Assembly (NCBI GenBank): GCA_022510585.1
Contig: JAFLTF010000016.1
Span: 1-35,952, forward strand
Reading direction: 5' to 3'
Source: Lachnospiraceae bacterium
Lineage (GTDB): Bacteria; Bacillota; Clostridia; Lachnospirales; Lachnospiraceae
Length of the DNA: 35,952 nt
How positions within the stretch are numbered: position 1 is the first letter of the stretch; every line of letters begins with the position of its first letter. The position numbers and the translations under genes were made by a program. Positions 109-12,471 of this stretch are shown here, in pieces. Under the pieces are notes generated by a model. That model saw nothing but the letters and a program-made list of their open reading frames with translations, was not told where the DNA came from and searched no databases.

Positions 109-138
109 AAAAAATAGGGAGCCAAATAAAACTCCCTA
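109..138 (-). terminator. Intrinsic terminator of the accessory operon
   Basis: Read on the minus strand, a perfect 7-bp stem (TAGGGAG / CTCCCTA, 10-nt loop) is followed directly by a run of six T residues. It lies about 120 nt past the stop codon of the last gene of the eight-gene minus-strand unit. I see no further open reading frame between that stop and the hairpin. It is the natural end of the unit. Confidence 0.85.
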
Positions 139-258
139 CTTATTTCATCTTACATTAATTTGTCTGCACTTAATAATCGCAATACAACTAACTTGGATAA
201 AATACTCCTAAGTAAATCAGATAATTATTTCTTCTTACTTATCTTTTCATTTCCTTCC

Positions 259-1245
259 TTAATCAATCATTTTTGACAATAATTCTCTAGAATCATTGGA
301 TAATTCTCCTGATTCAGAAAGAATAGTCGTATCCAATACAGATTTAATAGAAGCAACAGTTGAAACCAAAGCCGCAATAGACTTCCTGCTCTCCGTACAA
401 TACTGAGAGTAATCTATACCTTCTTCTGAGATAATACGCTTCATTTTTTCATTAAGTGGATATAAATATGCATCTAATTTTGCCAGTAAAGAATAGAACA
501 TATAACTTCTACGTCTAATTGCAATACACTGTTCTGAAGCAGTCTGAAGTTCTTCGCAGATTTCATTTGCTTTTGCTTCATTTGCATATGCATCCTGAAG
601 AGACTTTCCAGCTTTTGCACTTGTAATAATCCCCATAACAAGAAGTGCCGGTCCTGCTACAAGCCCACCAAGAACGGCTGTACCTCCAGCCATTCCCAAT
701 CCTCCCGCAGCTAACGAACCACCTCCGAAAAATGCCAATGTGGCATTTGATGCAGCCGCTCCACTTAACGAAGCAATTGCTGTACCAGTAGAGGCTGTTG
801 CAAAAGTTGTTGCTGCACTATAAGCTCCAAATGCAGCAAGAGCTCCACCTGCCGCCCCTGTTATTCCGCCTTGCACTAATGAAAAAGAAAACTTAGTCAT
901 TTCTGCAAGTTCAGTAAATTCCTTCTGATCAAGATTAAGCCGTTTTAATTCCATAATTCCTTCCGACTCAGAAAAATCCACATTCTTAATTTTCTGAAAG
1001 TTTGTTATAAATTCATTTATTCCATTATTGAGAACAAACACTTTTTCTTCGCCAAGGCGCTGCAAAGAATCTCCACATTGCTTTCTAAGATGATCTAAAC
1101 GATTTGCTGCATTCTCTATTCTTTGATTTGCATCATCATTTATATTTTTTGCATGTGATTGATCTACACCTGCCTTAACAGTTGCACCCACACCCGTAGC
1201 CCCCGTAACTGCAGCTATTCCTATAAACACCAACGGTAATGGCAT
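259..1245 (-). CDS. Glycine-zipper membrane-active protein, uncharacterised (328 aa)
   Basis: Function unknown. The N-terminus (residues 1-25) is hydrophobic and rich in Gly, Ala and Val. Residues 30-120 are charged and helical. Residues 125-208 form a long Gly/Ala-rich hydrophobic stretch with GxxxG-like spacing (for example GGGSLAAGGLGMAGGTAVLG), typical of glycine zippers that insert into or pack within membranes. A charged helical tail follows. From memory, this central motif recurs in many uncharacterised bacterial proteins, but I cannot name a family. AGGAGG lies 8 nt before the ATG, supporting the start. It is the last gene of the eight-gene unit and follows the TerB-like gene by about 70 nt. 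A pore-forming or membrane-scaffolding role is inference only. Confidence 0.75.
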   Translation of the reverse strand: MPLPLVFIGIAAVTGATGVGATVKAGVDQSHAKNINDDANQRIENAANRLDHLRKQCGDSLQRLGEEKVFVLNNGINEFITNFQKIKNVDFSESEGIMELKRLNLDQKEFTELAEMTKFSFSLVQGGITGAAGGALAAFGAYSAATTFATASTGTAIASLSGAAASNATLAFFGGGSLAAGGLGMAGGTAVLGGLVAGPALLVMGIITSAKAGKSLQDAYANEAKANEICEELQTASEQCIAIRRRSYMFYSLLAKLDAYLYPLNEKMKRIISEEGIDYSQYCTESRKSIAALVSTVASIKSVLDTTILSESGELSNDSRELLSKMID

Positions 1246-1315
1246 ATCCCATACCTCCTAATCCGTTTCAAGATTCACAAGAAATTCCCTCTGAAATTCA
1301 AAACACCACGGATGT

Positions 1316-2092
1316 CTACTTAGTTACATCCTTTATTTTAGAAAAAAGTTTTCCAGCTCCTTCTTTAAGTCCAGTAGCTCCAGCCATTGCTTTTGCTCCC
1401 AGTTCTTTTGCCACCGGAGCCATAGATTCTCCAACCTTTTTACTTCCAGCTATCACAGAATCTCCAATTTTTTTACCCGTAGTTAGAACAACATTTTCTT
1501 TTTTCTCTTCCTCTTCAGTAACATCAATGACCATATCATCCGTTATAAGATATTTTGCTGCTTCAACTATTGTTTGCTGTCTTTTTTCAACCTCGTCAAT
1601 CAGAGGTCTTACTTCTGCATATGATCTTGTCGAATTCTCAAGAGTTTCTTTTTCCTCCTGCAAAGAATGCGCAACACTTATGAGATGCTTCATCTCTGCC
1701 AGCACACTTCTGTCAATCTGAAGAATTCTAGCCACATGATTTATCAATCTGTTTTCATTTTCAGAATAGTCAGAGTCACTGTGTGCTAAAGTAAGCATAT
1801 TCCAAATAAGCAATCTGGGAACAACTCCATCCTCAATTTCTTTAACCATTTCATTCAGGGCTTGATCAATTCCTTCCTGAATCACATCATATCTTTCATC
1901 ATCAACTTCGACAGCATCAATTACTTCCTCACACTCAGCAATAATTGTTTCTTTTATCTCTGAGAAGGTTTCACCTAATAACTCGATTCCTATTTCCTGA
2001 AATCGTTCCTGTTCAAATGTGGTAACTCCATCTACTGCCATTAAATAGTAGAATACTTTAAGGGCACCCTCTTTTGCAATCACTTTGATCAT
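1316..2092 (-). CDS. TerB-like domain protein with amphipathic tail
   Basis: Residues 1-140 form an all-helical region with TerB-like hallmarks: an early hydrophobic helix followed by AVDG and a conserved glutamate helix (FEQERFQEIG), then a second acidic turn near residues 104-113 (HSDSDYSENE) leading into another helix. TerB-family domains occur in tellurite-resistance clusters and in some phage-defence systems, where acidic residues may bind metal. Residues 200-258 carry short repeats rich in Gly, Ala and Lys (KKIGDSVIAGSKKVGESM) that would form an amphipathic, membrane-associating helix. AGGAGG precedes the ATG. The gene sits 14 nt after the 541-residue protein gene. The domain call is by eye and would need a profile search to confirm. 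Confidence 0.65.
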   Translation of the reverse strand: MIKVIAKEGALKVFYYLMAVDGVTTFEQERFQEIGIELLGETFSEIKETIIAECEEVIDAVEVDDERYDVIQEGIDQALNEMVKEIEDGVVPRLLIWNMLTLAHSDSDYSENENRLINHVARILQIDRSVLAEMKHLISVAHSLQEEKETLENSTRSYAEVRPLIDEVEKRQQTIVEAAKYLITDDMVIDVTEEEEKKENVVLTTGKKIGDSVIAGSKKVGESMAPVAKELGAKAMAGATGLKEGAGKLFSKIKDVTK

Positions 2093-2106
2093 AGTTATCC
2101 CCCCTC

Positions 2107-3732
2107 CTAAAAGTTCAATGTGTCTTCCACCATCATAAGATTATCAAACTCATCCATAGAGCCAAACATACTTTTTCCGGATAGTTCTGCTTGAATCATA
2201 TTATTTCCCATAATAAATGCCTCTACATCATTTTCAGTTATTGCCTGATCCATAGCGCAAAAGGCCTGTGTAAATACAGATATTTTATCAAAGAGATAAT
2301 TAGTGACCATATCTTCCATCTCTTTACGATTTTCTCGGATAATTTCTATCCTTGCAACACATTCCTGCTCAATGCGAATTCTCTCTTCTGTTGCAAGCTT
2401 CAAATCTGTAAGAGCCTTATTTATCTCATCGTAAACGCCGATTGTTGCAGCAATAAATCCAATTGGAGTCCCTATTTTAGCCACAGAAATGGCAGTCTCA
2501 ACTCCATATTTACCGGTATCCCAATCAGCCTGTCCATTCGGTAATTTTTCAATAATAAATCTCTTTTGCTTCTCAGCTGCGGCAAGGAATCCTTTCTGCA
2601 TTTTCTGCATCGCTAACATAAACTCCGAATTAGATGCTAATGCAAGACTTCCCACTCCCCAATAATTAATACCTTGCATAAAATCCAAAGCAAATCCACT
2701 TGGATTCTCCTTATTTTTCAGGGCAGCCTTAATTCCTGCGACAGACAAATCGATAGAAGTAAATGTGGATGTAGCAATCATTCTCATATGCCTAATTGTT
2801 TCATTCTTCCATGGTAAACACTTTGAAATATCAATCTGTTTCAAGTCATCCAAAGAATTAATTCCGCCTTCCTCAATCTGCATCATAAATCTTCTAACAG
2901 AATAAAAAGATGCAACAATAAGTTCATTTAATACAACCGGAATATATTGTTTATTCTTGATTGATTCATTTACAATTCCCAGCTCTGTTCTTAAATCAAA
3001 TCTGAGTTCCTGATGAAGCACCGGCTTGCCATTTTTATCATGCTCCCCAAGCAATGTGCCGTTAAACATTTTTGAACATATCACTGAAAATCGGTAATTC
3101 TCTTCCTTATTAGAAGATGCCTTGGGATCTGTTTTTCCAGCAATATTTCGAATGCCAGGAATAGAAGAAATCTCTTTTAAAAATGAAAGTAATGGTCCTG
3201 GCACCCCGGTTCCTTCCCTTTCCATTTTCCTAGTGCCACTTGATCCGGCAATATCACTGATTATATGGAATAACCATGCAACAGTACCTAAATAAACAGA
3301 ATCTATGAAGCTTTTAGGTTGCCATCCAGGCACATCATAAGAAACAAACTCACCATTCGTTTTTGTTCCATATCCCTTCCCGGTGAACTGCATCAATAAG
3401 GAAAACATCAGACCAACCGGCGTAGGATGATGAGAGAAATCTCTCAAATGATGCTGTGCTCCGCTTCCGAACTCTTTTGTCAGAAGATCACCGTCCATAG
3501 GAAAATCATCCTCAAGTTTCTTAATCGCTCCCGCAATATCATTTCCTTTGTATCCTTTTGACTTTGCAACCTTTTTCACAAAATCATCAACTTTGTCACT
3601 GCCCCATTCATGTGCATCAAAGAAGGATATATCGCCAACCCATAGAACATCCATGGCTGCAGTAAGCGCTCCACTAGAAATAGAAAGAGCAACATCATAT
3701 TTATCTAATTTTTGATCAATATCCTTCACCAT
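2107..3732 (-). CDS. Uncharacterised 541-aa protein with His/Asp clusters
   Basis: I recognise no named family, although similar sequences with an HHLRDFSHHPTP-type motif are familiar from uncharacterised bacterial proteins. Two motifs stand out: H94, H95, D98, H101 and H102 in one cluster, and H156 with D160 in HIISDIAGS. Their spacing and their setting in hydrophobic helices suggest a metal-binding site, perhaps hydrolytic, but no catalytic family is clear. Residues 100-170 include hydrophobic segments, and residues 410-435 (SVAKIGTPIGFIAATIGVY) look membrane-compatible. The C-terminal 100 residues are charged and helical. AGGAGAG lies 8 nt before the ATG. It follows the 58-residue gene by 48 nt and precedes the TerB-like gene by 14 nt. 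Confidence 0.7.
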   Translation of the reverse strand: MVKDIDQKLDKYDVALSISSGALTAAMDVLWVGDISFFDAHEWGSDKVDDFVKKVAKSKGYKGNDIAGAIKKLEDDFPMDGDLLTKEFGSGAQHHLRDFSHHPTPVGLMFSLLMQFTGKGYGTKTNGEFVSYDVPGWQPKSFIDSVYLGTVAWLFHIISDIAGSSGTRKMEREGTGVPGPLLSFLKEISSIPGIRNIAGKTDPKASSNKEENYRFSVICSKMFNGTLLGEHDKNGKPVLHQELRFDLRTELGIVNESIKNKQYIPVVLNELIVASFYSVRRFMMQIEEGGINSLDDLKQIDISKCLPWKNETIRHMRMIATSTFTSIDLSVAGIKAALKNKENPSGFALDFMQGINYWGVGSLALASNSEFMLAMQKMQKGFLAAAEKQKRFIIEKLPNGQADWDTGKYGVETAISVAKIGTPIGFIAATIGVYDEINKALTDLKLATEERIRIEQECVARIEIIRENRKEMEDMVTNYLFDKISVFTQAFCAMDQAITENDVEAFIMGNNMIQAELSGKSMFGSMDEFDNLMMVEDTLNF

Positions 3733-3780
3733 AAATTTTTCTCTCCTAAAATGATGGATTGCTATGAGTTAGCTTCTTCT

Positions 3781-3957
3781 TTATGAAATTAATTGATATC
3801 CGTCAGTTCTCGTCCCAGATGTTTTAACCATATACAACATATACAAAATGAAGCCTTTTTGATCATTTGATATGAAATCTACCTGTTGATAGTATTCTGA
3901 GATGTAAATAATCTCATTTTGAATATCAACGCGTTGAATAAACTTATCATCCATCAT
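3781..3957 (-). CDS. Small uncharacterised protein (58 aa)
   Basis: A short reading frame begins MMDDKFIQRVDIQNEIIYIS and ends TDGYQLIS. Its first ATG overlaps the TGA stop of the zinc-ribbon gene (ATGATG arrangement), a common sign of translational coupling. It fills most of the otherwise empty gap between that gene and the 541-residue gene. Its composition (Asp, Gln, Tyr, Ile) is like real protein rather than noise, and it has no hydrophobic segment long enough to cross a membrane. A second in-frame ATG follows immediately at 3954. Function unknown. It may assist one of its neighbours. Confidence 0.6.
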   Translation of the reverse strand: MMDDKFIQRVDIQNEIIYISEYYQQVDFISNDQKGFILYMLYMVKTSGTRTDGYQLIS

Positions 3958-5198
3958 TTTTTATCCTTAAATGTATGGTAACTGATAGCAATTTGCGCAT
4001 CAATTCTTATTTTATCAGTTTTTCTAAAATCTTTCTTACCATTAATGGTTAAAGAATCTACTGAATCTTCTTTTACAAGCCATCCTTTCTTCAAATCAGG
4101 AATTGCTATTTTATCAATATTGACAAACCCAGCATTAGTAAATTCCCAGACCACATCGCCTATATCCTTCTTTTTAGCCTCTCGTGATGTCAAAGGAGGA
4201 CTCTTTCTCCTCAGCATATGGTATGTTACTTCAATCTGTGAAGTATATGGAAATTGTGCATCAGTCTCGAATATATATATTCCATTAAATCCAACAGCCT
4301 CTACAATACCTTCCCTTGATTTTTCCTCAATTGTAAGGTCCTCTATGATGTTAGTAGAAATATTATAGAACTCCTGCCGTTCAAGCAAACGAACAACTTC
4401 TTTATAACCCATAGTCTTGCTTTGATCAGAAGAAAATCCTACCGTCTGCTTCTTACCTGTTAGCGTTCTCCATATTTTTTTATGACGTGCTTTTCTTTGC
4501 TCCGTCTTTTGTCTTCTTTCCTCTTCTTTTCTACGCTTTTTCTCTTGTTGTTGTTTTTCTTCTAGCTCCTTTTGAAGCATAAGAGCCATCATTCTTTGCT
4601 CGTATTCCTCGAAGTCAAAATAAGCTCCATTATCCTCTTCCTCATCATCGTCTTCATCGGATTCATAATACGATAAACCAATATCTTCGTCATCATCTCC
4701 ATCACTTAAATCTTCATCAGACCAGTCATTGTAATATCCACACTTTTCACATATATGAGTATTAAAATATTCATAAAAGCCACTTTGCTTATTCAATAGA
4801 CGACCACAGCCTTCACATCGACGTGGATTGCCGTACTGCCATTCATCACCATACCCAAATCCATCGTCATCACCTTCATCGTTAGAATTGTCTGAACAGC
4901 TTTTCTGGTATGCTTCTTCTGAATCATATATTTCCTCTTCTGAAATATTATTGACATGACCGCATTTCGTACATGTCCATGTACTGTACCAATCGGAAAA
5001 CCCGATTTGATTATTCAGGAAAGTACCACAAACATCACAAAACCAGTCCACCTCGGGAAATCGTGCATTCACATCTGAATCTTCCGGATTTGTTAAGAAT
5101 TGACCGCATTCTGTACATGTCCAATATCCGGCAGCCGGATCAAATCCTGGCTGATCTCCCAATTCTGCCTCACAATATGGGCAATAATAATCTCTCAT
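3954..5198 (-). CDS. Triple zinc-ribbon, PASTA-like repeat protein (414 aa)
   Basis: Three tandem zinc ribbons are visible: C6/C9-C28/C31, C54/C57-C76/C79 and C128/C131-C150/C153. Each has a QxGF-type motif between its Cys pairs, so they look like internal duplications. Residues 160-190 are almost wholly Asp and Glu, and residues 200-245 form a Glu/Lys/Arg-rich helix. Two repeats follow (about 264-327 and 345-408), each with a helix ending in GF or EF-x-NI and a strand ending in a YH motif (VTYH, ISYH). These resemble PASTA-like modules of Lachnospiraceae proteins. There is no signal peptide, so a cytosolic scaffold is likely, perhaps binding nucleic acid or protein. GAGG precedes the ATG. 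The gene overlaps the 58-residue gene downstream. Confidence 0.75.
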   Translation of the reverse strand: MRDYYCPYCEAELGDQPGFDPAAGYWTCTECGQFLTNPEDSDVNARFPEVDWFCDVCGTFLNNQIGFSDWYSTWTCTKCGHVNNISEEEIYDSEEAYQKSCSDNSNDEGDDDGFGYGDEWQYGNPRRCEGCGRLLNKQSGFYEYFNTHICEKCGYYNDWSDEDLSDGDDDEDIGLSYYESDEDDDEEEDNGAYFDFEEYEQRMMALMLQKELEEKQQQEKKRRKEEERRQKTEQRKARHKKIWRTLTGKKQTVGFSSDQSKTMGYKEVVRLLERQEFYNISTNIIEDLTIEEKSREGIVEAVGFNGIYIFETDAQFPYTSQIEVTYHMLRRKSPPLTSREAKKKDIGDVVWEFTNAGFVNIDKIAIPDLKKGWLVKEDSVDSLTINGKKDFRKTDKIRIDAQIAISYHTFKDKK

Positions 5199-5265
5199 CC
5201 TTCCGCCTCAACATCCGTGATCTATTCAGCAATAACAGTAATATCTTCACAACTCTTTTATAAAG

Positions 5266-6609
5266 TTAATTGATATTAGTAAACTCTTTTGTAATATCAT
5301 TCGTCAAATCGATTTGCTGACTATTACTCAGTTTATATGAGGTTCTCACAACCATTGTTCCTATAATAACGTAAGATCCAGAATATAAAACTGTGCCATC
5401 AAACTGAGATAGATAATCACATCTGTTAAGAGCGTATTCTAATGTTTCATACACCTCTATTGCACCACCAGCATCTGTTCCCTTATCTACAACAGAGCTC
5501 CCTTTTATCTTACTGGAATCGATACCCTTAACAGTAAAATATATACATGCTGTATATCCGCCTTCCTTTCCCAATAAACCATTAGGATCTTTGGACTTGG
5601 TTACAGCCTCTACTTCAGTAATGTCCTTCACTTTTTTCAGCTTATCTAATACCCACTGTTGTTCTGGATTCGTTATTTGCAATGCTATCAAATAATCACC
5701 TACTAAAACTTCAATTTCGGAAAGCATTGAATCTAATGAATTACACAACTCCCCTTCACTCATATTTTTCATGCTTTCAATATCCATTTCGTCTTTTACA
5801 AATGCTTTGTTTGTCATTCCATCAATAAAATTTACTGAAGTTCTTGTTACCAAATCATTATATTCTGTTGCAACAATATTGTAGTCCTCAATAACGCTGT
5901 TGTATGAAGCAAGACATACATCATAATACTTTTGATTAATATCACCCCTTTGCGATAAAACAGTATCTACATCATCTGCAAAATTATGAAGGGTATGCCA
6001 TTTCTCTAATATAGCCTTATTGTCCATCTTTATTTCTTCCAGCAATACAATGGCATCCGGAATATCTCCCACATTGTATGCAGCCATTTTTTCCAATAAA
6101 GAATTATATTGATTTGCAACTTCGTTATATGAATGAACCATAGTATTGTATTCATTCACACATATTTCATTATATTGAGCACAAAGACTATCTTTATCAG
6201 ATATACACTGACTTGCTTCTTGCAAAATTATACTTATATCCGCGCCATTAGCATAATAAGTCTCAAAGTCAGCAGAAACTTTTTGTTTCTTATCTGCTTT
6301 CTGTGGCAATTCACTATCAGATATCTGCTCAATATATGCTTGTAAACTATCAATTCTTTCAACCTCGGAATTGTATTCAGCAATAGCGGCATTATAAGAT
6401 TCAATAGCCGCATTATACTCATCCTGAAGCCTTTGTATTCTTCTAGAATTGTTACTATAAATCACAAGGGCAATTACTATACAGGCAACGCCAATTATTG
6501 CACAACCGATTAAAATACGATGCTTCCTAATCATTTCTTTAATTTGATTTTCTTTTTTTATTTCAGAATTATTCTCTGATGAATTGCTGGATATTTCTTT
6601 TGAGTTCAT
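5266..6609 (-). CDS. Single-pass membrane protein with YN-repeat coiled coil (447 aa)
   Basis: A charged 30-residue N-terminus is followed by one hydrophobic segment (about 31-51), so most of the protein should face outside the cell in type II fashion. Residues 60-270 are helical and repeat the pair Tyr-Asn in EYNAAIESYNAAIAEYN-like phrases many times, which suggests a long coiled coil. The C-terminal 130 residues form a separate domain with DPNGLLGKEGGYTACIYF and a DAGGAIEVYETLEYA motif, familiar from uncharacterised surface proteins but without a name I can give. The ATG is preceded by GGGAG at 6 nt and overlaps the end of the 115-residue gene by 41 nt. The role may be envelope anchoring of the system. 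Confidence 0.75.
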   Translation of the reverse strand: MNSKEISSNSSENNSEIKKENQIKEMIRKHRILIGCAIIGVACIVIALVIYSNNSRRIQRLQDEYNAAIESYNAAIAEYNSEVERIDSLQAYIEQISDSELPQKADKKQKVSADFETYYANGADISIILQEASQCISDKDSLCAQYNEICVNEYNTMVHSYNEVANQYNSLLEKMAAYNVGDIPDAIVLLEEIKMDNKAILEKWHTLHNFADDVDTVLSQRGDINQKYYDVCLASYNSVIEDYNIVATEYNDLVTRTSVNFIDGMTNKAFVKDEMDIESMKNMSEGELCNSLDSMLSEIEVLVGDYLIALQITNPEQQWVLDKLKKVKDITEVEAVTKSKDPNGLLGKEGGYTACIYFTVKGIDSSKIKGSSVVDKGTDAGGAIEVYETLEYALNRCDYLSQFDGTVLYSGSYVIIGTMVVRTSYKLSNSQQIDLTNDITKEFTNIN

Positions 6610-6916
6610 TTATCGCTCCCTCACATGTACGTTGTTTGATGATACCTTCGTCTGCATATGCTGCAACAAACATTTCCTTATCAAATAATTGCAAGGCAAC
6701 AACAGCATAATTTTTCTTAAAGAAACCTCCTGGAATAACAGCCACATATACCCTGTCTTCCAAAAATTCTCTTTGAATTTTTCCTATTTTGATTAATATA
6801 TCTCTTAGTTTTATTAAGGATAAGCCATCAACAGAAAACGACTGATTAACTATCTTTTTCTCTTCAACTGGCGCTGTATCCATCAATATTTGATTAAGGC
6901 TTATATACTTTTCCAT
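6569..6916 (-). CDS. Small alpha/beta protein, uncharacterised (115 aa)
   Basis: The protein has no signal peptide or membrane segment. Hydrophobic strands (VYVAVIPGGFF, YAVVALQLF, MFVAAYADEG) alternate with charged helices, suggesting a small cytosolic alpha/beta fold. The phrase AYADEGIIKQRTCEGAINELK is familiar from short uncharacterised proteins of gut Clostridia, but I know no function. The ATG overlaps the TGA stop of the preceding secreted protein (TGATG), and there is no strong nearby ribosome binding site, so translation is probably coupled. It overlaps the following membrane-protein gene by 41 nt, which argues for co-expression and possibly direct partnership. Confidence 0.65.
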   Translation of the reverse strand: MEKYISLNQILMDTAPVEEKKIVNQSFSVDGLSLIKLRDILIKIGKIQREFLEDRVYVAVIPGGFFKKNYAVVALQLFDKEMFVAAYADEGIIKQRTCEGAINELKRNIQQFIRE

Positions 6917-8502
6917 CAGTGAACAAATACAACTCCTTCCAATTCTTCCTTCAATGCTATACGCATTTCCTCTTCTGTAGGTGCTTCAATCTTTGCCCTT
7001 TTTGCTACTTCTGCTTCAAAAAGAGGCTCTAATGAATCCGTTGCAAATTTTTCACGGTCTTCACTTTGATACATATCTTTAAACATATCACTATTAAGAT
7101 TTTCACTGAATTGATTCACGATGTTCTGTGCTTCATTCTCATTAACCATATAATCCTCACATAACTGGGCAAATTGATTTTCCAGAATAGCATACATTTC
7201 TTCAGCATCGTCATCAGTAATATAATCTGCTATCTTATCCGCAAGTAATCCCCCTCCAAGGCCAAATAGTATGGATCCAACTATCGCCCCCGGGACAGTT
7301 CCAACACCAGGTACAACCAAATTTGCTAGCGCTCCACCTACTCCATATCCCGCTGTACCGGCAAAAACACTGACTGCTGTTACAGCAAAATTTTTTATAA
7401 ACTGCTTCTTTGAAATTCTTCCTCTAAATACATCTATCCCATCAGGAACGGAAAAAACAATCGTAGTAACAACTGCAACAAGGACTTCTGCCCTCAACAG
7501 TTGTGCTGCTTGTTTTGTTGCTGACTGAGCAACCGATTCCCCAGTATCCGCCAAAACTCTTTGCCCATATGCTTTTAACAGTACTTTGGAAAAGTCTTCT
7601 CCCAATGCTCTTGTAAGTGCTTCTGACGAAGGCTTAAAAACATTCATAATTCCAGTCTTTGTAAGCTGACTCGCAATAACTGAAGTAGCAAAAACGCCAA
7701 CACCAGTCCTCACTCCTTCAATTGCAGACACCTTTAGTGCTTTCTCTCTATCTTGTCCGTTTATTCTGCAAACCGCATAATTCAGAACAGTGCTAATTCC
7801 AAATGCCCCACCTGCTGATATCACTCCATGCGCTGCATCATAAGTTAAAGATTCTAAAGTCCCAGCCTTAGCAAGATTTTCTGCCTGCTTATAGGTAAGA
7901 TTTCCTTTACGAACCAAATTTTTAGCCTCTGCAGGATCTTCAACTCCAGGAACTTTACCCTCTATTATCTTTTGTTCCATTCTAGAAACAGCAGCTTCAT
8001 ACTGATCTTTAGGAACCTCAATTTGCATTAAGTTTCCATCGCCATCAATGTACCTAAATTTTCCAGAGGTGTCAAAACATGCATCAATACTTGCCGTAGC
8101 ATTATTATAGTACTTATCCTGAATACTTATAACTGTCCCATCCCTATTTATGATTAGGCGATCAGCTCCATTTTTTGCGTTGTCATCTCCAATAACAATA
8201 GTATTTTTTCCTTTTATCTTATCAATAAAATCATTGCCCTGCTCTGCTGCAAAAGAGTGACCATTACCCTTGTATGCAAACTTAATTTGTGATATTACGT
8301 CATTAACGGTTCTTATATTTGCAGCACTTGATTCAGCTCCAGCCGGTAATGTCTCGGGCAATATATTCTCACATATTGTTGTATCGATTCCGTCTTCCTC
8401 CTGTATTTCTTCTGCATAAGCAGTAAGTGGAATTGCTGAAATGATAATACTTATGCTTAATAAAACAGCAAGTATTCTATTAGTTATATTTCTCTTTCTC
8501 AT
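6916..8502 (-). CDS. Secreted glycine/alanine-rich membrane-active protein (528 aa)
   Basis: I chose the ATG at 8502 because a GGAGGGG lies 8 nt upstream and it begins a classic signal peptide (MRKRNITNRILAVLL, cleavage after AYA at residue 30). An in-frame ATG at 8547 would add 15 residues without a good site. Residues 65-215 hold a conserved soluble region with IVIGDDNAKNGADR and MQIEVPKDQY. Residues 215-430 alternate Gly/Ala-rich hydrophobic helices and end in a glycine zipper (GTAGYGVGGALANLVVPGVG). Residues 430-528 are acidic and helical. Similar sequences without a signal peptide come to mind from many bacteria, none with a known function. First gene of the eight-gene unit. A pore or channel is a guess. 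Confidence 0.75.
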   Translation of the reverse strand: MRKRNITNRILAVLLSISIIISAIPLTAYAEEIQEEDGIDTTICENILPETLPAGAESSAANIRTVNDVISQIKFAYKGNGHSFAAEQGNDFIDKIKGKNTIVIGDDNAKNGADRLIINRDGTVISIQDKYYNNATASIDACFDTSGKFRYIDGDGNLMQIEVPKDQYEAAVSRMEQKIIEGKVPGVEDPAEAKNLVRKGNLTYKQAENLAKAGTLESLTYDAAHGVISAGGAFGISTVLNYAVCRINGQDREKALKVSAIEGVRTGVGVFATSVIASQLTKTGIMNVFKPSSEALTRALGEDFSKVLLKAYGQRVLADTGESVAQSATKQAAQLLRAEVLVAVVTTIVFSVPDGIDVFRGRISKKQFIKNFAVTAVSVFAGTAGYGVGGALANLVVPGVGTVPGAIVGSILFGLGGGLLADKIADYITDDDAEEMYAILENQFAQLCEDYMVNENEAQNIVNQFSENLNSDMFKDMYQSEDREKFATDSLEPLFEAEVAKRAKIEAPTEEEMRIALKEELEGVVFVH

Positions 8503-8670
8503 CAAACGTACCCCTCCCTCACAATTATAGGTTTCATCATTTTGCAATAGTTTAGTTTACAAAACCTAAAGTTTAAAATCCAAATACCATTACCTTTACT
8601 TAGATTTACAAATCTGCATATCGTTAATCCAACCAAAATTAGCAGTCGAATCCCAAGACAAATTTTCTAT

Positions 8671-8714
8671 TTGTTGTATAAATCTATATTATCACAACAA
8701 TTATTAGTAAGAAA
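8671..8714 (-). promoter_or_regulatory. Candidate promoter and operator of the accessory operon
   Basis: The 300 nt between the secreted-protein gene and the next gene upstream contain no credible reading frame and are very AT-rich. On the minus strand, TTTCTT (8709-8714) and TAATAT (8686-8691) are separated by 17 nt and could be -35 and -10 elements. A 7-bp inverted repeat, TTGTTGT (8671-8677) and ACAACAA (8694-8700), surrounds the -10, as an operator might. The leader would be about 180 nt long. AT-rich sequence gives many chance matches, so this is tentative. Confidence 0.35.
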
Positions 8715-8803
8715 GACAAAATGTTTTATTATGTACTATATATATAATTTTAATAAATATTTTACAACAAACCATCCTACAGAAACTTTCTCCAATCCAT
8801 ATT

Positions 8804-9019
8804 TTATATCAACACTTTCCTCGCAAGATTAAAGCAGTCTTTTCCTATCGGCATCAGCAATATTGTTATGCAAAACACAATGCCCAAGAACGCCATTAGA
8901 ATTGCACACGGCAGCTTTATGCACAGCCAAAACAATATTGAAAACATTACACCGGTAATTTTGAAACAAAACCAAAATATAACCGTTAATAACCCTAAAC
9001 AAATAATAATTTCCAGCAT
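8804..9019 (-). CDS. Small two-helix membrane protein (71 aa)
   Basis: Nearly the whole protein is hydrophobic. Segments of about 20 residues each (IIICLGLLTVIFWFCFKITG and the stretch around CAILMAFLGIVFCITILLMP) should cross the membrane, joined by a turn with KLP. The ATG at 9019 is chosen because AAGGAGG lies 6 nt before it. An earlier TTG at 9037 would place that site inside the gene. Similar short proteins with KITG and KLP motifs are familiar from Lachnospiraceae, function unknown. It follows the exonuclease gene by 36 nt and may share its transcript. No intrinsic terminator is obvious after it. Confidence 0.65.
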   Translation of the reverse strand: MLEIIICLGLLTVIFWFCFKITGVMFSILFWLCIKLPCAILMAFLGIVFCITILLMPIGKDCFNLARKVLI

Positions 9020-9055
9020 AATTTTCCTCCTTACCAAAATTAGTCTAATTACTCA

Positions 9056-9712
9056 TCATCCAAACACAACGCTCAGTGCAGGACATATATCTCCGAGTGT
9101 AAACATTGCTGACTTTAAACCGTCTTCCCGACTCTTACGATAATATTCGTTCAAGATGAGAACCGGTTCCTTCTTCATTTTGATAAACAACATAGCAGTG
9201 TTTTTTGCATCAACTAATCCATCATGCAGATTTTCATCAAACATAATATCCGCTGCAATTAGTGCTTCTGATAATCTATATTGCTTTTTTCTATCCATTT
9301 TTTCTGAAAAGGTCTTTTGACAATCCTGCCAAGTTTCAAGCAGCATATTTAGTCTAGGAATGTTGATATGTTTTGCCTCTATTTCATGACAGATTTGCTT
9401 TTTATCGCTATTACTCCACGAAACACAGATGGCATCTTCCGGAACCCAATCTACAAACTGCTCTAATGCTTCTTTTACTTTAGAAGCGTCTTTTACATCA
9501 AACGATGAAATTCCCGTTAAATTTCTGATAAATCCATCAATCGCACCATACTCTGGATGCACATAGGTATTAAACTCATCGATAATTTCTAAATTCTCAT
9601 CAACTAACACAGCTCCTATCTGAATAGTTTCAGCTGACCAAGGATACCTATGGGTTCTGATTGGTTTTGGTACCATACACATTTCAAGATCAACTATTAC
9701 ATATTTACTCAT
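9056..9712 (-). CDS. DnaQ-like 3'-5' exonuclease (DEDDh)
   Basis: The protein should remove nucleotides from 3' ends of DNA or RNA in the cytosol using two metal ions. The DEDDh signature is visible: D8 and E10 in IVDLE (Exo I), a WSNSDKKQI region with D103 (Exo II), and H163 with D168 in HDGLVDAKNT (Exo III). At 218 residues it is a stand-alone exonuclease of the KapD/ERI-1-like kind and carries no polymerase or helicase domain. GGAGG lies 9 nt before the ATG. It sits in the AT-rich accessory block between a small membrane protein and a 54-residue protein. The substrate cannot be told from sequence, and a link to the eight-gene unit is unproven. Confidence 0.88.
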   Translation of the reverse strand: MSKYVIVDLEMCMVPKPIRTHRYPWSAETIQIGAVLVDENLEIIDEFNTYVHPEYGAIDGFIRNLTGISSFDVKDASKVKEALEQFVDWVPEDAICVSWSNSDKKQICHEIEAKHINIPRLNMLLETWQDCQKTFSEKMDRKKQYRLSEALIAADIMFDENLHDGLVDAKNTAMLFIKMKKEPVLILNEYYRKSREDGLKSAMFTLGDICPALSVVFG

Positions 9713-9776
9713 ATTAAATTTCCTCCAACTCGATTTATTACTTGTACATTTTCATTTTGTAAGCTAGGTATTTTGC

Positions 9777-9941
9777 TCAATCATTTAATTTCTTATTATC
9801 TCTTTTATTACCAAAACATTCATCAATCGGATTCCCATGAAATGTAGATTTATTTACTAATCCCAGCCTTTTACACAATTCTTTCTTACTTTCCATTTGA
9901 TTAATCAACTGGCACATTCTTACTCTCTCCTGAATACTCAT
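9777..9941 (-). CDS. Small hypothetical protein (54 aa)
   Basis: The start at 9941 has AGGAGG 6 nt upstream. A longer in-frame start at 9980 would put that site within the gene and add a Lys/Arg run. The protein begins MSIQERVRMCQLINQMESKK and ends in charged residues. It has a short helix, then LGLVNKSTFHG. Similar short proteins with an E-R-x-R-x-C-x-L-I helix and an S-T-F-H-G motif seem common next to XRE regulators in Lachnospiraceae, from memory. It is transcribed away from the XRE gene at 10130, with a candidate operator between them. Function unknown. Confidence 0.55.
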   Translation of the reverse strand: MSIQERVRMCQLINQMESKKELCKRLGLVNKSTFHGNPIDECFGNKRDNKKLND

Positions 9942-9979
9942 CCTACCCCTCCTTCTGTTTTTCTTTTTTATATGACTCA

Positions 9980-10017
9980 AGTATATCTTGAAACTATCAA
10001 CTAGAAAACATTGATAG
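9980..10017 (-). promoter_or_regulatory. Promoter with inverted repeat bracketing the -35
   Basis: On the minus strand, TTTTCT (10003-10008) and TATACT (9980-9985) are spaced by 17 nt and would drive the 54-residue gene. A perfect 7-bp inverted repeat, CTATCAA (9994-10000) and TTGATAG (10011-10017), is centred exactly on the -35 hexamer. This is the geometry of a repressor operator. The adjacent divergent XRE regulator is the obvious candidate to bind it. Confidence 0.5.
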
Positions 10018-10090
10018 GTGCGACATAGTCACTTCTATTTCACCTTTAATGGCAAAATAGATTTTTCTTTATTTGTCCATGGGTTCCATG

Positions 10091-10125
10091 TATAATAGTA
10101 AGTAGCAAAATGCCGATAAGGAGAG
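10091..10125 (+). promoter_or_regulatory. -10 element and RBS of the XRE gene
   Basis: A consensus TATAAT (10091-10096) lies about 34 nt before the ATG, and AAGGAGAG (10118-10125) gives a strong ribosome binding site. No good -35 is seen at 17 nt. TTGTCC at 10073 is too close (12 nt), so the promoter may need an activator or a different -35. Confidence 0.5.
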
Positions 10126-10129
10126 TTTT

Positions 10130-10639
10130 ATGGGGCGAAAATCTACAAAAGAAAACAAGAATATCTATCAGATTAGCCGAGAAAATGCTAATCTTACGAG
10201 AGAAGCTGCTGCTGAACAACTTGAATTTATATCTTCAGACCGAATTGAGAAAATCGAAAGTGAAAAGTCATATCCTCATCCGGATGAAATCCTAGCAATG
10301 GCAGACTGCTATAAGAATCCTTCTTTATGCAATTACTATTGTTCACACGAATGTTCCATTGGACGGGAGTATGTACCAGAGGTTACTGCAAAAGATCTTT
10401 CTATGGTTACGCTTGAAATGCTTTCAACATTAAATACACTTTCCAAAGAAAAAGATCTGATGATTGATATTGCTGCTGATGGGGAAGTTACAGAGGATGA
10501 AATGTCAGACTTTTTAAGAATCAGGAATACCCTTGAAGATATGTCATTATCTATTGAATCTTTAAAATTATGGTTTGAAAATGCAATTGCATCTGGAAGA
10601 ATAGATAAAAGTGTCTTAAACAAGCTCACACAAAAATAG
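10130..10639 (+). CDS. XRE-family HTH regulator with Cys cluster (169 aa)
   Basis: Residues 11-62 form a Cro/CI-type helix-turn-helix (NIYQISRENANLTREAAAEQ, then RIEKIE and PHPDEILAMADCY). It is followed by four cysteines, C60, C67, C71 and C75, in LCNYYCSHECSIG, which look like a metal or redox site. From memory, this LCNYYCSHEC phrase is conserved in a Lachnospiraceae group of XRE regulators. Residues 90-169 form acidic helices likely used for dimerisation. The gene is divergent from the 54-residue gene, and an inverted repeat lies between them. It may control that gene, the exonuclease or the accessory operon. The ligand is unknown. Confidence 0.8.
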   Translation: MGRKSTKENKNIYQISRENANLTREAAAEQLEFISSDRIEKIESEKSYPHPDEILAMADCYKNPSLCNYYCSHECSIGREYVPEVTAKDLSMVTLEMLSTLNTLSKEKDLMIDIAADGEVTEDEMSDFLRIRNTLEDMSLSIESLKLWFENAIASGRIDKSVLNKLTQK

Positions 10640-10752
10640 ATGTATTGTCAGAGATAAAAATTCCGGAATACTCTTCGTATTTTCAATCTCACTAATTAAT
10701 TTGTTCTGATAGATTATAACAAAATTTCAGCATGCTTTGATTATAACTTTTA
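10640..10752. other. AT-rich stretch without a gene
   Basis: I see no reading frame, RNA gene or strong terminator between the XRE stop codon and the decayed DUF3800 fragment. A weak hairpin (AATAC-TCTTC-GTATT) lies near 10660 and is followed by only a short T run, so it is a poor terminator candidate. Confidence 0.5.
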
Positions 10753-11084: not shown

Positions 11085-11104
11085 GGCGGGAAATTCATCC
11101 CGCC
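11085..11104. repeat. Hairpin downstream of ctpA
   Basis: A perfect 7-bp inverted repeat, GGCGGGA / TCCCGCC with a 6-nt loop, lies about 40 nt past the ctpA stop codon. It lacks a T run on either strand, so it is at best a weak terminator or an mRNA-stabilising stem. It sits where AT-rich accessory DNA gives way to the more balanced core sequence. Confidence 0.55.
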
Positions 11105-11145
11105 TGCGGTGGTCCAAAGAGCTTACGCCCAGACCAAATTTGACA

Positions 11146-12471
11146 CTACTTCATCATCTTAAGGATTTCTTTCTTCGCTTCTTCCAACTGATTATCGATA
11201 CCCTCATCATAGTAAGCGTCCGCATCAAATACACATTCAATATCCGGCTTGATTCCGATGCCATGAATATTGTTCCCTTTCGGTGTATAATAGGCGCTTA
11301 CCGTCAGCTTTAATGCCGTTCCGTCTGTAAGCGGAAGGATTCTCTGCACAATGCCTTTCCCGAAAGTAGTCGTACCGATCAGAGTTCCTTTTCCGTAATC
11401 CTTAACAGCTCCCGCAAGGATCTCCGAGGCACTGGCGGAATTCCCGTTTACCAACACTACAAGAGGTATCTGTAATTCTTTCTTCCCGTCACAGCGGTAC
11501 TCTGTCCGTTCTCCGGCACGGTCTTCCGTATATACGATAAGTCCTTCCGGCAGAATCTGCCTTGCAATATCCACTACTACGGATAAGCTTCCGCCTGGAT
11601 TGCTCCTCAGATCAAGAATCAGACCGGCAGCGCCCGAACCCTTTATCACCGCCATTGCTTCCGTAAATTGCTCTATTGTAACTTCATCAAATTCCGTTAT
11701 CTGGATATAAGCGACTCCGTTATCCATCATTTCATAATTTACGGTAGGAGATTCGATCTGTCTTCTGACAACATCAATTTCCAGATAATCTGCCTCTCCT
11801 TCTCTGTATATTGTCAAATGTACTGTCGTTCCTTCTTCTCCCTTGATTCTGGCAACAATTTCAGATAATTCCAATCCCTGTGCGGATTCTCCGTCTACCT
11901 GATAAATAATATCATTTTCCCTAAGTCCTGCTTCCTGCGCGGGGGTGTTTGCAATGACTCCACTGATCTTGCCGTATCCGGTCCTTTGATCCAGACTCAC
12001 ATAAGCGCCAATACCGAAATAAATGCCTTCCGTATCTCTCATCAGGTCTTCCCATTCGTCTGCCGTATAATAAACAGAGTAGGGATCTCCCAAAGATGCC
12101 ACCAGTCCTTCATACATCCCCTCGATCATATCGTCTGTACTGATGTCTTCGTCTTGATAATAATATTCCTCAATAACTTCTTCGATCGATTTCAGCTTGG
12201 CAACGGAATCGTCATTCACAACACTGTCCGCAATCACTCCTTCCGCACTTGCCGGTCTGGCATTGTTACGCTGAAAATTGTCGGTAAGCTTGGTACCGAC
12301 ATAGATTGCGCTTGCTATAAGGGTACTGATTATCACGCCGCTAAACAGACCCACAAGGAACATCCCTTTTGTCTGATTTGATTCCCGCTGCGGTCCATCC
12401 TGATACAAATTATTAGTCGCTCCCTGATTCACTTCATTATTATTACTATATCCATAATTATCCAATATCAT
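11146..12471 (-). CDS. ctpA: CtpA-type S41 carboxy-terminal processing protease
   Basis: A membrane-anchored serine protease that cleaves extracytoplasmic proteins near their C-termini. The order is a cytosolic N-terminus, one membrane helix (about 37-60), an N-terminal helical region (FGDPYSVYY-type motif near 127-135), a PDZ domain (about 150-235) and the S41 core. The catalytic serine lies in GNSASASE (343-350) and the lysine is K372 in FGKG, so both residues of the Ser/Lys dyad are present. Length 441 is normal. It is the last gene of the ftsE-ftsX-pcsB-like run, 34 nt from the M23 hydrolase gene, suggesting that it processes division-linked wall enzymes. That functional link is inference. 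Confidence 0.92.
   Translation of the reverse strand: MILDNYGYSNNNEVNQGATNNLYQDGPQRESNQTKGMFLVGLFSGVIISTLIASAIYVGTKLTDNFQRNNARPASAEGVIADSVVNDDSVAKLKSIEEVIEEYYYQDEDISTDDMIEGMYEGLVASLGDPYSVYYTADEWEDLMRDTEGIYFGIGAYVSLDQRTGYGKISGVIANTPAQEAGLRENDIIYQVDGESAQGLELSEIVARIKGEEGTTVHLTIYREGEADYLEIDVVRRQIESPTVNYEMMDNGVAYIQITEFDEVTIEQFTEAMAVIKGSGAAGLILDLRSNPGGSLSVVVDIARQILPEGLIVYTEDRAGERTEYRCDGKKELQIPLVVLVNGNSASASEILAGAVKDYGKGTLIGTTTFGKGIVQRILPLTDGTALKLTVSAYYTPKGNNIHGIGIKPDIECVFDADAYYDEGIDNQLEEAKKEILKMMK

Follow-up and report, generated by a model that had tools for sequence, protein, structure and literature searches.

The window analysed here, a stretch of 35,952 nucleotides, is the entire contig JAFLTF010000016.1 (C68) of a Lachnospiraceae draft genome (GCA_022510585.1; 2.53 Mb, 80% complete). 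Near one end it carries a compact gene cluster at 259-8502, which stops 258 bases short of the end of the contig. The cluster contains seven non-nested minus-strand open reading frames (ORFs) of 115-541 residues, named g1 to g7 in the order of transcription, and an eighth ORF of 58 residues between g4 and g5 (Table 1). An earlier note, made from the letters of this DNA without database searches, had described the eight genes as one AT-rich operon that matches no named system. The close packing is evident from the ORFs and their coordinates: g1 and g2 overlap by 1 nucleotide, g2 and g3 by 41 and g4 and the 58-residue ORF by 4, and gaps of 67, 48, 14 and 70 nucleotides separate g3 from g4, the 58-residue ORF from g5, g5 from g6 and g6 from g7, respectively. 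The GC content is 0.381 over 259-3732 and 0.359 over 3733-8502, against 0.439 over 11146-35952, where 34 equal-size segments (step 500) range from 0.425 to 0.451; the block is thus AT-rich, as had been claimed. A terminator-like stem is present at the end of the operon, but six such sites occur in 11.2 kb compared with 4.4 expected from shuffles, which makes the hairpin weak evidence on its own. Within this cluster, g5, g6 and g7 form a compact conserved cassette and the other five genes a separate, exchangeable block.

The g7 alignment was scanned against one genome per species (84,980 species), which gave 168 relatives, and the best 80 were used as loci; as these were selected by g7, the co-occurrence counts are biased accordingly. 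In 72 of the 80 loci g6 and then g5 are the two nearest same-strand genes upstream of g7, with median gaps of 11 nucleotides (g5-g6) and 12 nucleotides (g6-g7). The remaining eight (L075, L079, L082, L113, L116, L118, L129 and L138), some of which lie at contig ends, have g5 and/or g6 missing or unrecognised. By phmmer, g6 is found in 75 and g5 in 74 of the 80 loci, compared with none for g1 and g2, one for g3 and five for g4. The earlier note had set recurrence of the gene families together against their independent scatter, and each holds for part of the operon: g5-g6-g7 recur together, and the upstream genes g1-g4, which the test covered without the 58-residue ORF, are scattered.

The g7 tree comprises 81 rows including the window, 67 from Bacillota, 8 from Actinomycetota, 2 from Spirochaetota, 3 ungrouped and one labelled Alphaproteobacteria (a metagenome-assembled genome). 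The operon has its closest relatives in Lachnospiraceae. Within the source family g5 is present in 16 of 200 evenly drawn genomes, its own genome counted, and g1, g4 and g3 in 9, 10 and 8, respectively. In thirteen of 17 g5 loci, found in 15 other genomes of the family, either g5 itself or an adjoining gene has a g7-like match, and a profile search adds a fourteenth (L041). The loci of the g5 and g7 lists are not all independent: L066 is the same contig as G478:C2, and L037 and L121 appear to be a single contig, judged by its length and the sizes of the genes. In L031 and L032 g5 and g7 are separated by a small cysteine-rich protein, identified by Pfam as CxxCxxCC in L031.

Although the partners g6 and g7 are kept, the front part of g5 is swapped among homologues, while its C-terminal part is common to all classes of the g5 family. 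In class A (49 of the 81 rows) the front part is BnzB-like, as in the window. In class B (16 rows) it is nuclease-like with a QxK motif, and the two proteins tested match PDC-M09B. Class C (7 rows) consists of short proteins with the common C-terminal part alone, one of them (L135) a 93-residue piece; nine rows are unassigned. On the g7 tree the class changes 7 times, with a minimum of 2 and a shuffled mean of 21.2, and therefore the effectors are partly lineage-bound but have been swapped several times. More than 200 extra N-terminal residues are present in 22 of 48 class-A proteins, all 22 with an HExxH motif, and Pfam identifies M48 in 19 and NUDIX in 2 of the 54 members scanned. By eye, a MutT/NUDIX-like N-terminal part precedes the BnzB-like g5 at 7185-9203 of L089 and 7170-9179 of L126. 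In the class-A alignment (54 rows) the conserved residues are Asp28 (52 rows), Glu74 (49), Asp82 (49), His94 (49), His95 (50), Asp98 (42), His101 (50), His102 (41), His156 (49) and Asp160 (48). This set looks like a metal-dependent active site, and judged by this conservation the BnzB-like domain is probably a metal-dependent hydrolase. An assignment of g5 as a spore photoproduct lyase (Pfam, 0.056) was dropped. Searches with the profiles of g5, g1 and g7 yielded no significant match among solved structures (best values 0.25 and 0.61, and none for g7).

The separateness of the upstream genes is seen in the nearest relative, L066, which has a g7 of 95% identity and sits in the same genomic place. 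Its DNA is 87% identical to the window over 249-3722 and 85% over 8611-10640, with no match between, so that the exchange break coincides with the start of g5. Since this break is clean, g1-g4 and the 58-residue ORF are regarded as a cargo block in a hotspot. The acquisition by transfer proposed in the earlier note is supported by this exchange of genes. The slot of L066 holds unrelated genes for proteins of 1268, 758 and 146 residues, the first with a signal-peptide-like start. The 758-residue protein, encoded at 4791-7067 on the plus strand of L066, is lipoprotein-like and has no Pfam match, and the 146-residue protein that follows contains cysteines. L066 adjoins a homologue (81% identical) of the window gene at 11146-12471, the product of which we take to be a C-terminal processing protease; on the other side lies a gene whose start resembles uvrB. 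The flank shared with the window includes three recognisable genes outside the operon (Table 1). Beyond them a DUF3800-XI RNA (Rfam) is present at 11089-11136 on the minus strand, beside a stretch that is stop-ridden in one frame. This is probably a decayed DUF3800 element, in agreement with the DUF3800 remnant noticed earlier. In the nearest relative (L216, 15116-16587, minus strand) the gap between regulator and protease holds small genes resembling, by eye, PIN-type toxin-antitoxin pairs. These occupy the position of the DUF3800 remnant in the window, a second exchange point of the hotspot.

Table 1. Features of the operon and its shared flank, with positions in the window.
Feature	Description	Position	Strand	Basis
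g1	528 residues; YeeR-family core, signal-peptide-like N-terminus, NGAD...IQxKY motif, glycine zipper	6916..8502	-	family searches, alignment
g2	115 residues; partner of g1	6569..6916	-	directly 3′ of g1 in L146-L149 and L203
g3	447 residues; membrane anchor near N-terminus, coiled coil, C-terminal domain	5266..6609	-	hydrophobicity, homologues
g4	414 residues; three zinc ribbons, charged linker, repeated C-terminal domain	3954..5198	-	Pfam, PHROGs
58-residue ORF	eighth gene	3781..3957	-	ORF listing
g5	541 residues; BnzB-like effector candidate	2107..3732	-	PADLOC, conservation
g6	258 residues; TerB-like, amphipathic-looking tail	1316..2092	-	Pfam TerB 2.8e-4, below cut-off; relatives partly above
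g7	328 residues; glycine-zipper membrane protein (PDC-M09A)	259..1245	-	PADLOC, relatives
Hairpin	terminator-like, of the operon; 12-pair stem	112..141	-	hairpin scan
Small membrane protein	77 residues; weakly YccF-like; shared flank outside operon	8804..9037	-	Pfam YccF 5.6e-4, below cut-off
Exonuclease-like protein	218 residues; DEDDh type; shared flank	9056..9712	-	Pfam RNase_T 1.2e-16
Regulator	helix-turn-helix, phage type; shared flank	10130..10639	+	phrog_6499 5.7e-44

None of the proteins g1-g7 has a Pfam or NCBIfam match above cut-off. PADLOC models, however, identify g5 as BnzB (1.2e-31; two stretches, the best covering residues 7-188 on positions 158-352 of the 504-position model) and g7 as PDC-M09A (1.8e-36, residues 31-308), and give a weak match of g1 to PDC-M09B (9.7e-8, best stretch 357-470), so that the claim of no named system does not hold. 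The match of g6 to TerB (PF05099) scores 21.6 bits (E-value 2.8e-4), below the cut-off of 24.4. Among four TerB-like genes scanned from other loci, three exceed the cut-off (27.4, 26.0 and 26.6 bits) and the fourth falls short of it (15.1); those in the g6 slot include L038 (27.4), L037 (26.0) and L067 (15.1). Of the three products credited with membrane segments, g1 and g7 contain three and two hydrophobic segments on the Kyte-Doolittle scale, whereas g6, like g5, has none, its tail being amphipathic by eye only. The signal peptide and signal anchor suggested for two products correspond to the first segment of g1, which is N-terminal and signal-peptide-like by eye, and to the single segment of g3, near its N-terminus.

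The window cassette is neither an exact Bunzi nor an exact PDC-M09 system, because it has no BnzA and no adjacent PDC-M09B; it is a related, Bunzi-type variant. Bunzi is said to have been described by Millman et al. in 2022. It resembles the cassette in its BnzB component, and the table of one review lists TerB for Bunzi (PMC10952713). In contrast to Bunzi, the TerB-like and zipper parts are encoded separately here (g6 and g7), and the g5 match enters the BnzB model only at position 158. PDC-M09, a PADLOC phage-defence candidate with components A and B, is similar in g7 and in the two class-B homologues of g5. It differs in that the g5 slot of the window is BnzB-like and a TerB-like gene intervenes; neither g5 nor g6 has a PADLOC match to PDC-M09B, which is matched only by g1, partially and six genes away from g7. 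A passage in PMC10250203 describes Shango as a three-gene anti-phage system with a TerB-like protein, but Shango includes a helicase and an ATPase, and there is neither among the Pfam matches of g1-g7. The zippers of g7-like and g1-like relatives weakly match the dynamin-like partners LeoBC and LeoB (1.4e-6, 1.3e-4 and 8e-9), but no GTPase occurs among the same Pfam matches. Among the papers listed by literature searches, none had a title on a mechanism of Bunzi and none used the term PDC-M09. The zipper regions were also considered as tape-measure or tail-lysin sequences (PHROGs, 5e-5 and 1.4e-4 for g1, 0.0056 for g7); these matches were taken as an effect of composition.

We consider it rather probable that g5-g6-g7 constitute a Bunzi-type immune (anti-phage) cassette with interchangeable effectors, and that the upstream genes are a separate YeeR-type block. 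We infer the defence role of the cassette, its membrane seating, its trigger and its enzymatic activities in the following form. The glycine-zipper protein g7 would sit in or insert into the membrane, and g6, with its TerB-like domain and amphipathic tail, would bind g7 and serve as a sensor or adaptor. The effector would be carried by g5, held on the platform of g7 and g6, and released as a domain on infection, most likely by phage DNA entry or membrane disturbance. In the window this effector would be BnzB-like; in relatives its place would be taken by a nuclease-like domain, or an M48 peptidase extension would be added. The pair g1-g2 would belong to the same superfamily, as a nuclease-like YeeR-type module associated with the membrane and located in the same hotspot, with g3 and g4 as accessory envelope and zinc-ribbon proteins.

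Mobile elements carry members of these families: g5 homologues are present on 11 plasmid records, one BnzB-like gene lies in a viral contig (L248), and distant g7-like genes occur on a Latilactobacillus plasmid (L193) and a contig of a viral collection (L250). In addition, the proteins in the near flanks of the cassettes (121 proteins, E-values up to 1e-8) match defence families of PADLOC, including, among the best 25 of 181 families, WYL (5), AbiLi (3), type IV restriction (2) and DrmMII (1). Several observations weigh against the Bunzi-type reading. Defence families, SIR2 and PDC-S02 among them, also occur in the far-flank control of 96 proteins encoded over 5 kb away, and there is no clean defence enrichment of near over far flanks (with redundant models and the best 25 families compared per set); the neighbourhood therefore indicates defence-rich islands rather than a specific link. 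The g6-type TerB gene is found in only 3 of the 17 loci selected by g5, and tblastn and pattern searches of viral contigs, phages and plasmids with g7 gave no relatives. Moreover, none of the 10 window proteins scanned, g6 and g7 among them but not the 58-residue ORF, matches BnzA in PADLOC. It may be that g6 and g7 together are a split counterpart of BnzA, because the N-terminus of the g1 homologue in L146 matches the BnzA model and a Vibrio plasmid with a canonical pair (BnzA 3.8e-177, BnzB 7.6e-178) encodes a BnzA in which a zipper region weakly resembles PDC-M09A (1.4e-3). However, Pfam detects no TerB in this Vibrio BnzA, nor is it matched by the profiles of g6 and g7, so that the idea comes down to one weak match and the domain order.

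The upstream block is characterised by g1, residues 75-506 of which share about 35% identity with E. coli proteins (tblastn 2e-56); DNA relatives of the E. coli homologue include genes annotated YeeR. The long E. coli gene is covered to at least 80% in 1780 of 5426 genomes. Among the records listed, two with a yeeR annotation, including one labelled K-12 MG1655, align with no more than the first 60% of it. Although its core is homologous to the YeeR family, the window g1 has another N-terminus and a partner, g2. No function of YeeR turned up in the literature listing. In addition, g1 is homologous to class-B g5 proteins, the 18 long ones of which match at 6e-95 to 2e-57 after profile iteration, with drift possible on such glycine-rich sequence. 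The NGAD...IQxKY motif of g1 is conserved in a four-row alignment, and a profile comparison of this region with Mrr_cat gives a weak match (1.9% probability, E-value 0.025) in which the Asp and QxK are aligned; five column shuffles gave 0.1% each and TerB 0.5%. The motif and this comparison are only suggestive of a nuclease-like g1. By analogy rather than kinship, g1 resembles SNIPE, a membrane-bound nuclease, the N-terminal membrane anchors of which are described in a passage of PMC13190303 as diverse, some pleckstrin-like; but neither DUF4041 nor GIY-YIG is among the Pfam matches of g1 up to an E-value of 0.1. In the viral-collection contig L250, which may be a bacterial island, regulator-like, g7-like, g1-C-terminal-like and YeeR-like genes are consecutive at 231-5993. 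Contig L249 contains a g1-like gene with, by eye, phage tail and lysis genes.

Alternatively, the upstream block could be an inter-bacterial competition module distinct from the cassette, with g1 as an exported nuclease-like toxin, its zipper for membrane passage and g2 as immunity protein. This would fit the signal-peptide-like N-terminus of g1 and the position of g2 directly after the g1 core in five loci (L146-L149, from four other genomes of the family and with g1 interrupted in L149, and L203). It would also fit the proteins in the same slot of L066, a layout that resembles a polymorphic toxin with its partner, and the secretion-like N-terminus of a DNA/RNA non-specific endonuclease in L037 (Endonuclea_NS_2, 4.6e-15). 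However, three g1 homologues share a different N-terminus, which in L146, the only one tested, is BnzA-like (8.3e-19), and the E. coli and Klebsiella homologues start, by eye, with hydrophobic segments. Furthermore, g2 was not found in 9 of the 14 g1-like loci, and in two of them a 133-residue TerB-like gene precedes g1. Such a module therefore appears unlikely.

Somewhat less probable still is a role of the cassette in general envelope or metal stress of the Ter type. The family name of TerB and the lipoprotein- or secretion-like starts (crude predictor) of genes in several operons would agree with this, but the patchy presence, the exchange of effectors, the matches to defence families and the plasmid carriage of the BnzB branch would not.

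The C-terminal domain of g3 occurs elsewhere in proteins with secretion-like N-termini. The zinc ribbons with PASTA-like repeats attributed to g4 are borne out as three CxxC...CxxC pairs by eye, with DZR at 25.8 bits (cut-off 27.3; 48.9 in a homologue), whereas PASTA gave one sub-cut-off match in a homologue (19.3 versus 23.2 bits) and none in the window protein; g4 also matches phrog_29396 (1e-16, two stretches). Zinc ribbons fused to a protein kinase lie near cassettes in L036 (1502-2584, Pfam kinase) and, by motif only, in L037 (= L121), L117 and L153. Pairings across the proposed boundary, namely a g3 homologue that immediately precedes g5 in L143, a g4-like gene near a g7-like one in L153 and a g7-like gene adjoining g1-like genes in L250, as well as g1 and full-length g4 homologues together in L207 (the latter of 497 residues and two genes after g1), would suit the single envelope-linked machine of the earlier note, but this view is quite improbable and as a conserved unit largely refuted by the near absence of g1-g4 from the 80 g7 loci, the sharply bounded exchange of the block in L066, with its break where g5 begins, and a g4 signal that comes in good part from zinc ribbons, 9 of the 18 profile matches having a kinase motif (L037 and L121 apparently being one contig). 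What survives of that proposal are the membrane parts and the link to defence families.

With the Bunzi-type cassette as the favoured explanation, the ordinary part of the finding is a variant of Bunzi, and the more interesting part is the exchange of effectors and the tie to YeeR. An eight-gene operon such as this should not be counted as one system without neighbourhood data. Tentatively, and with more doubt than for the cassette itself, Bunzi, PDC-M09, YeeR and the zipper parts of Leo may be members of one superfamily, in which an adaptor (TerB- or PH-like) and a glycine-zipper platform are combined with interchangeable effectors (BnzB metal-hydrolase-like, M48-extended or nuclease-like), two of which would be present in the window and would block phage DNA entry. 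If so, a single operon would encode a cytosolic effector together with one that is exported or anchored in the membrane, and phage DNA would be cleaved or blocked at the membrane on entry. The finding links Bunzi and PDC-M09, separate entries in a defence database, with the widespread YeeR family of E. coli, and offers the simple and testable idea that the partners are kept and the effector is swapped.

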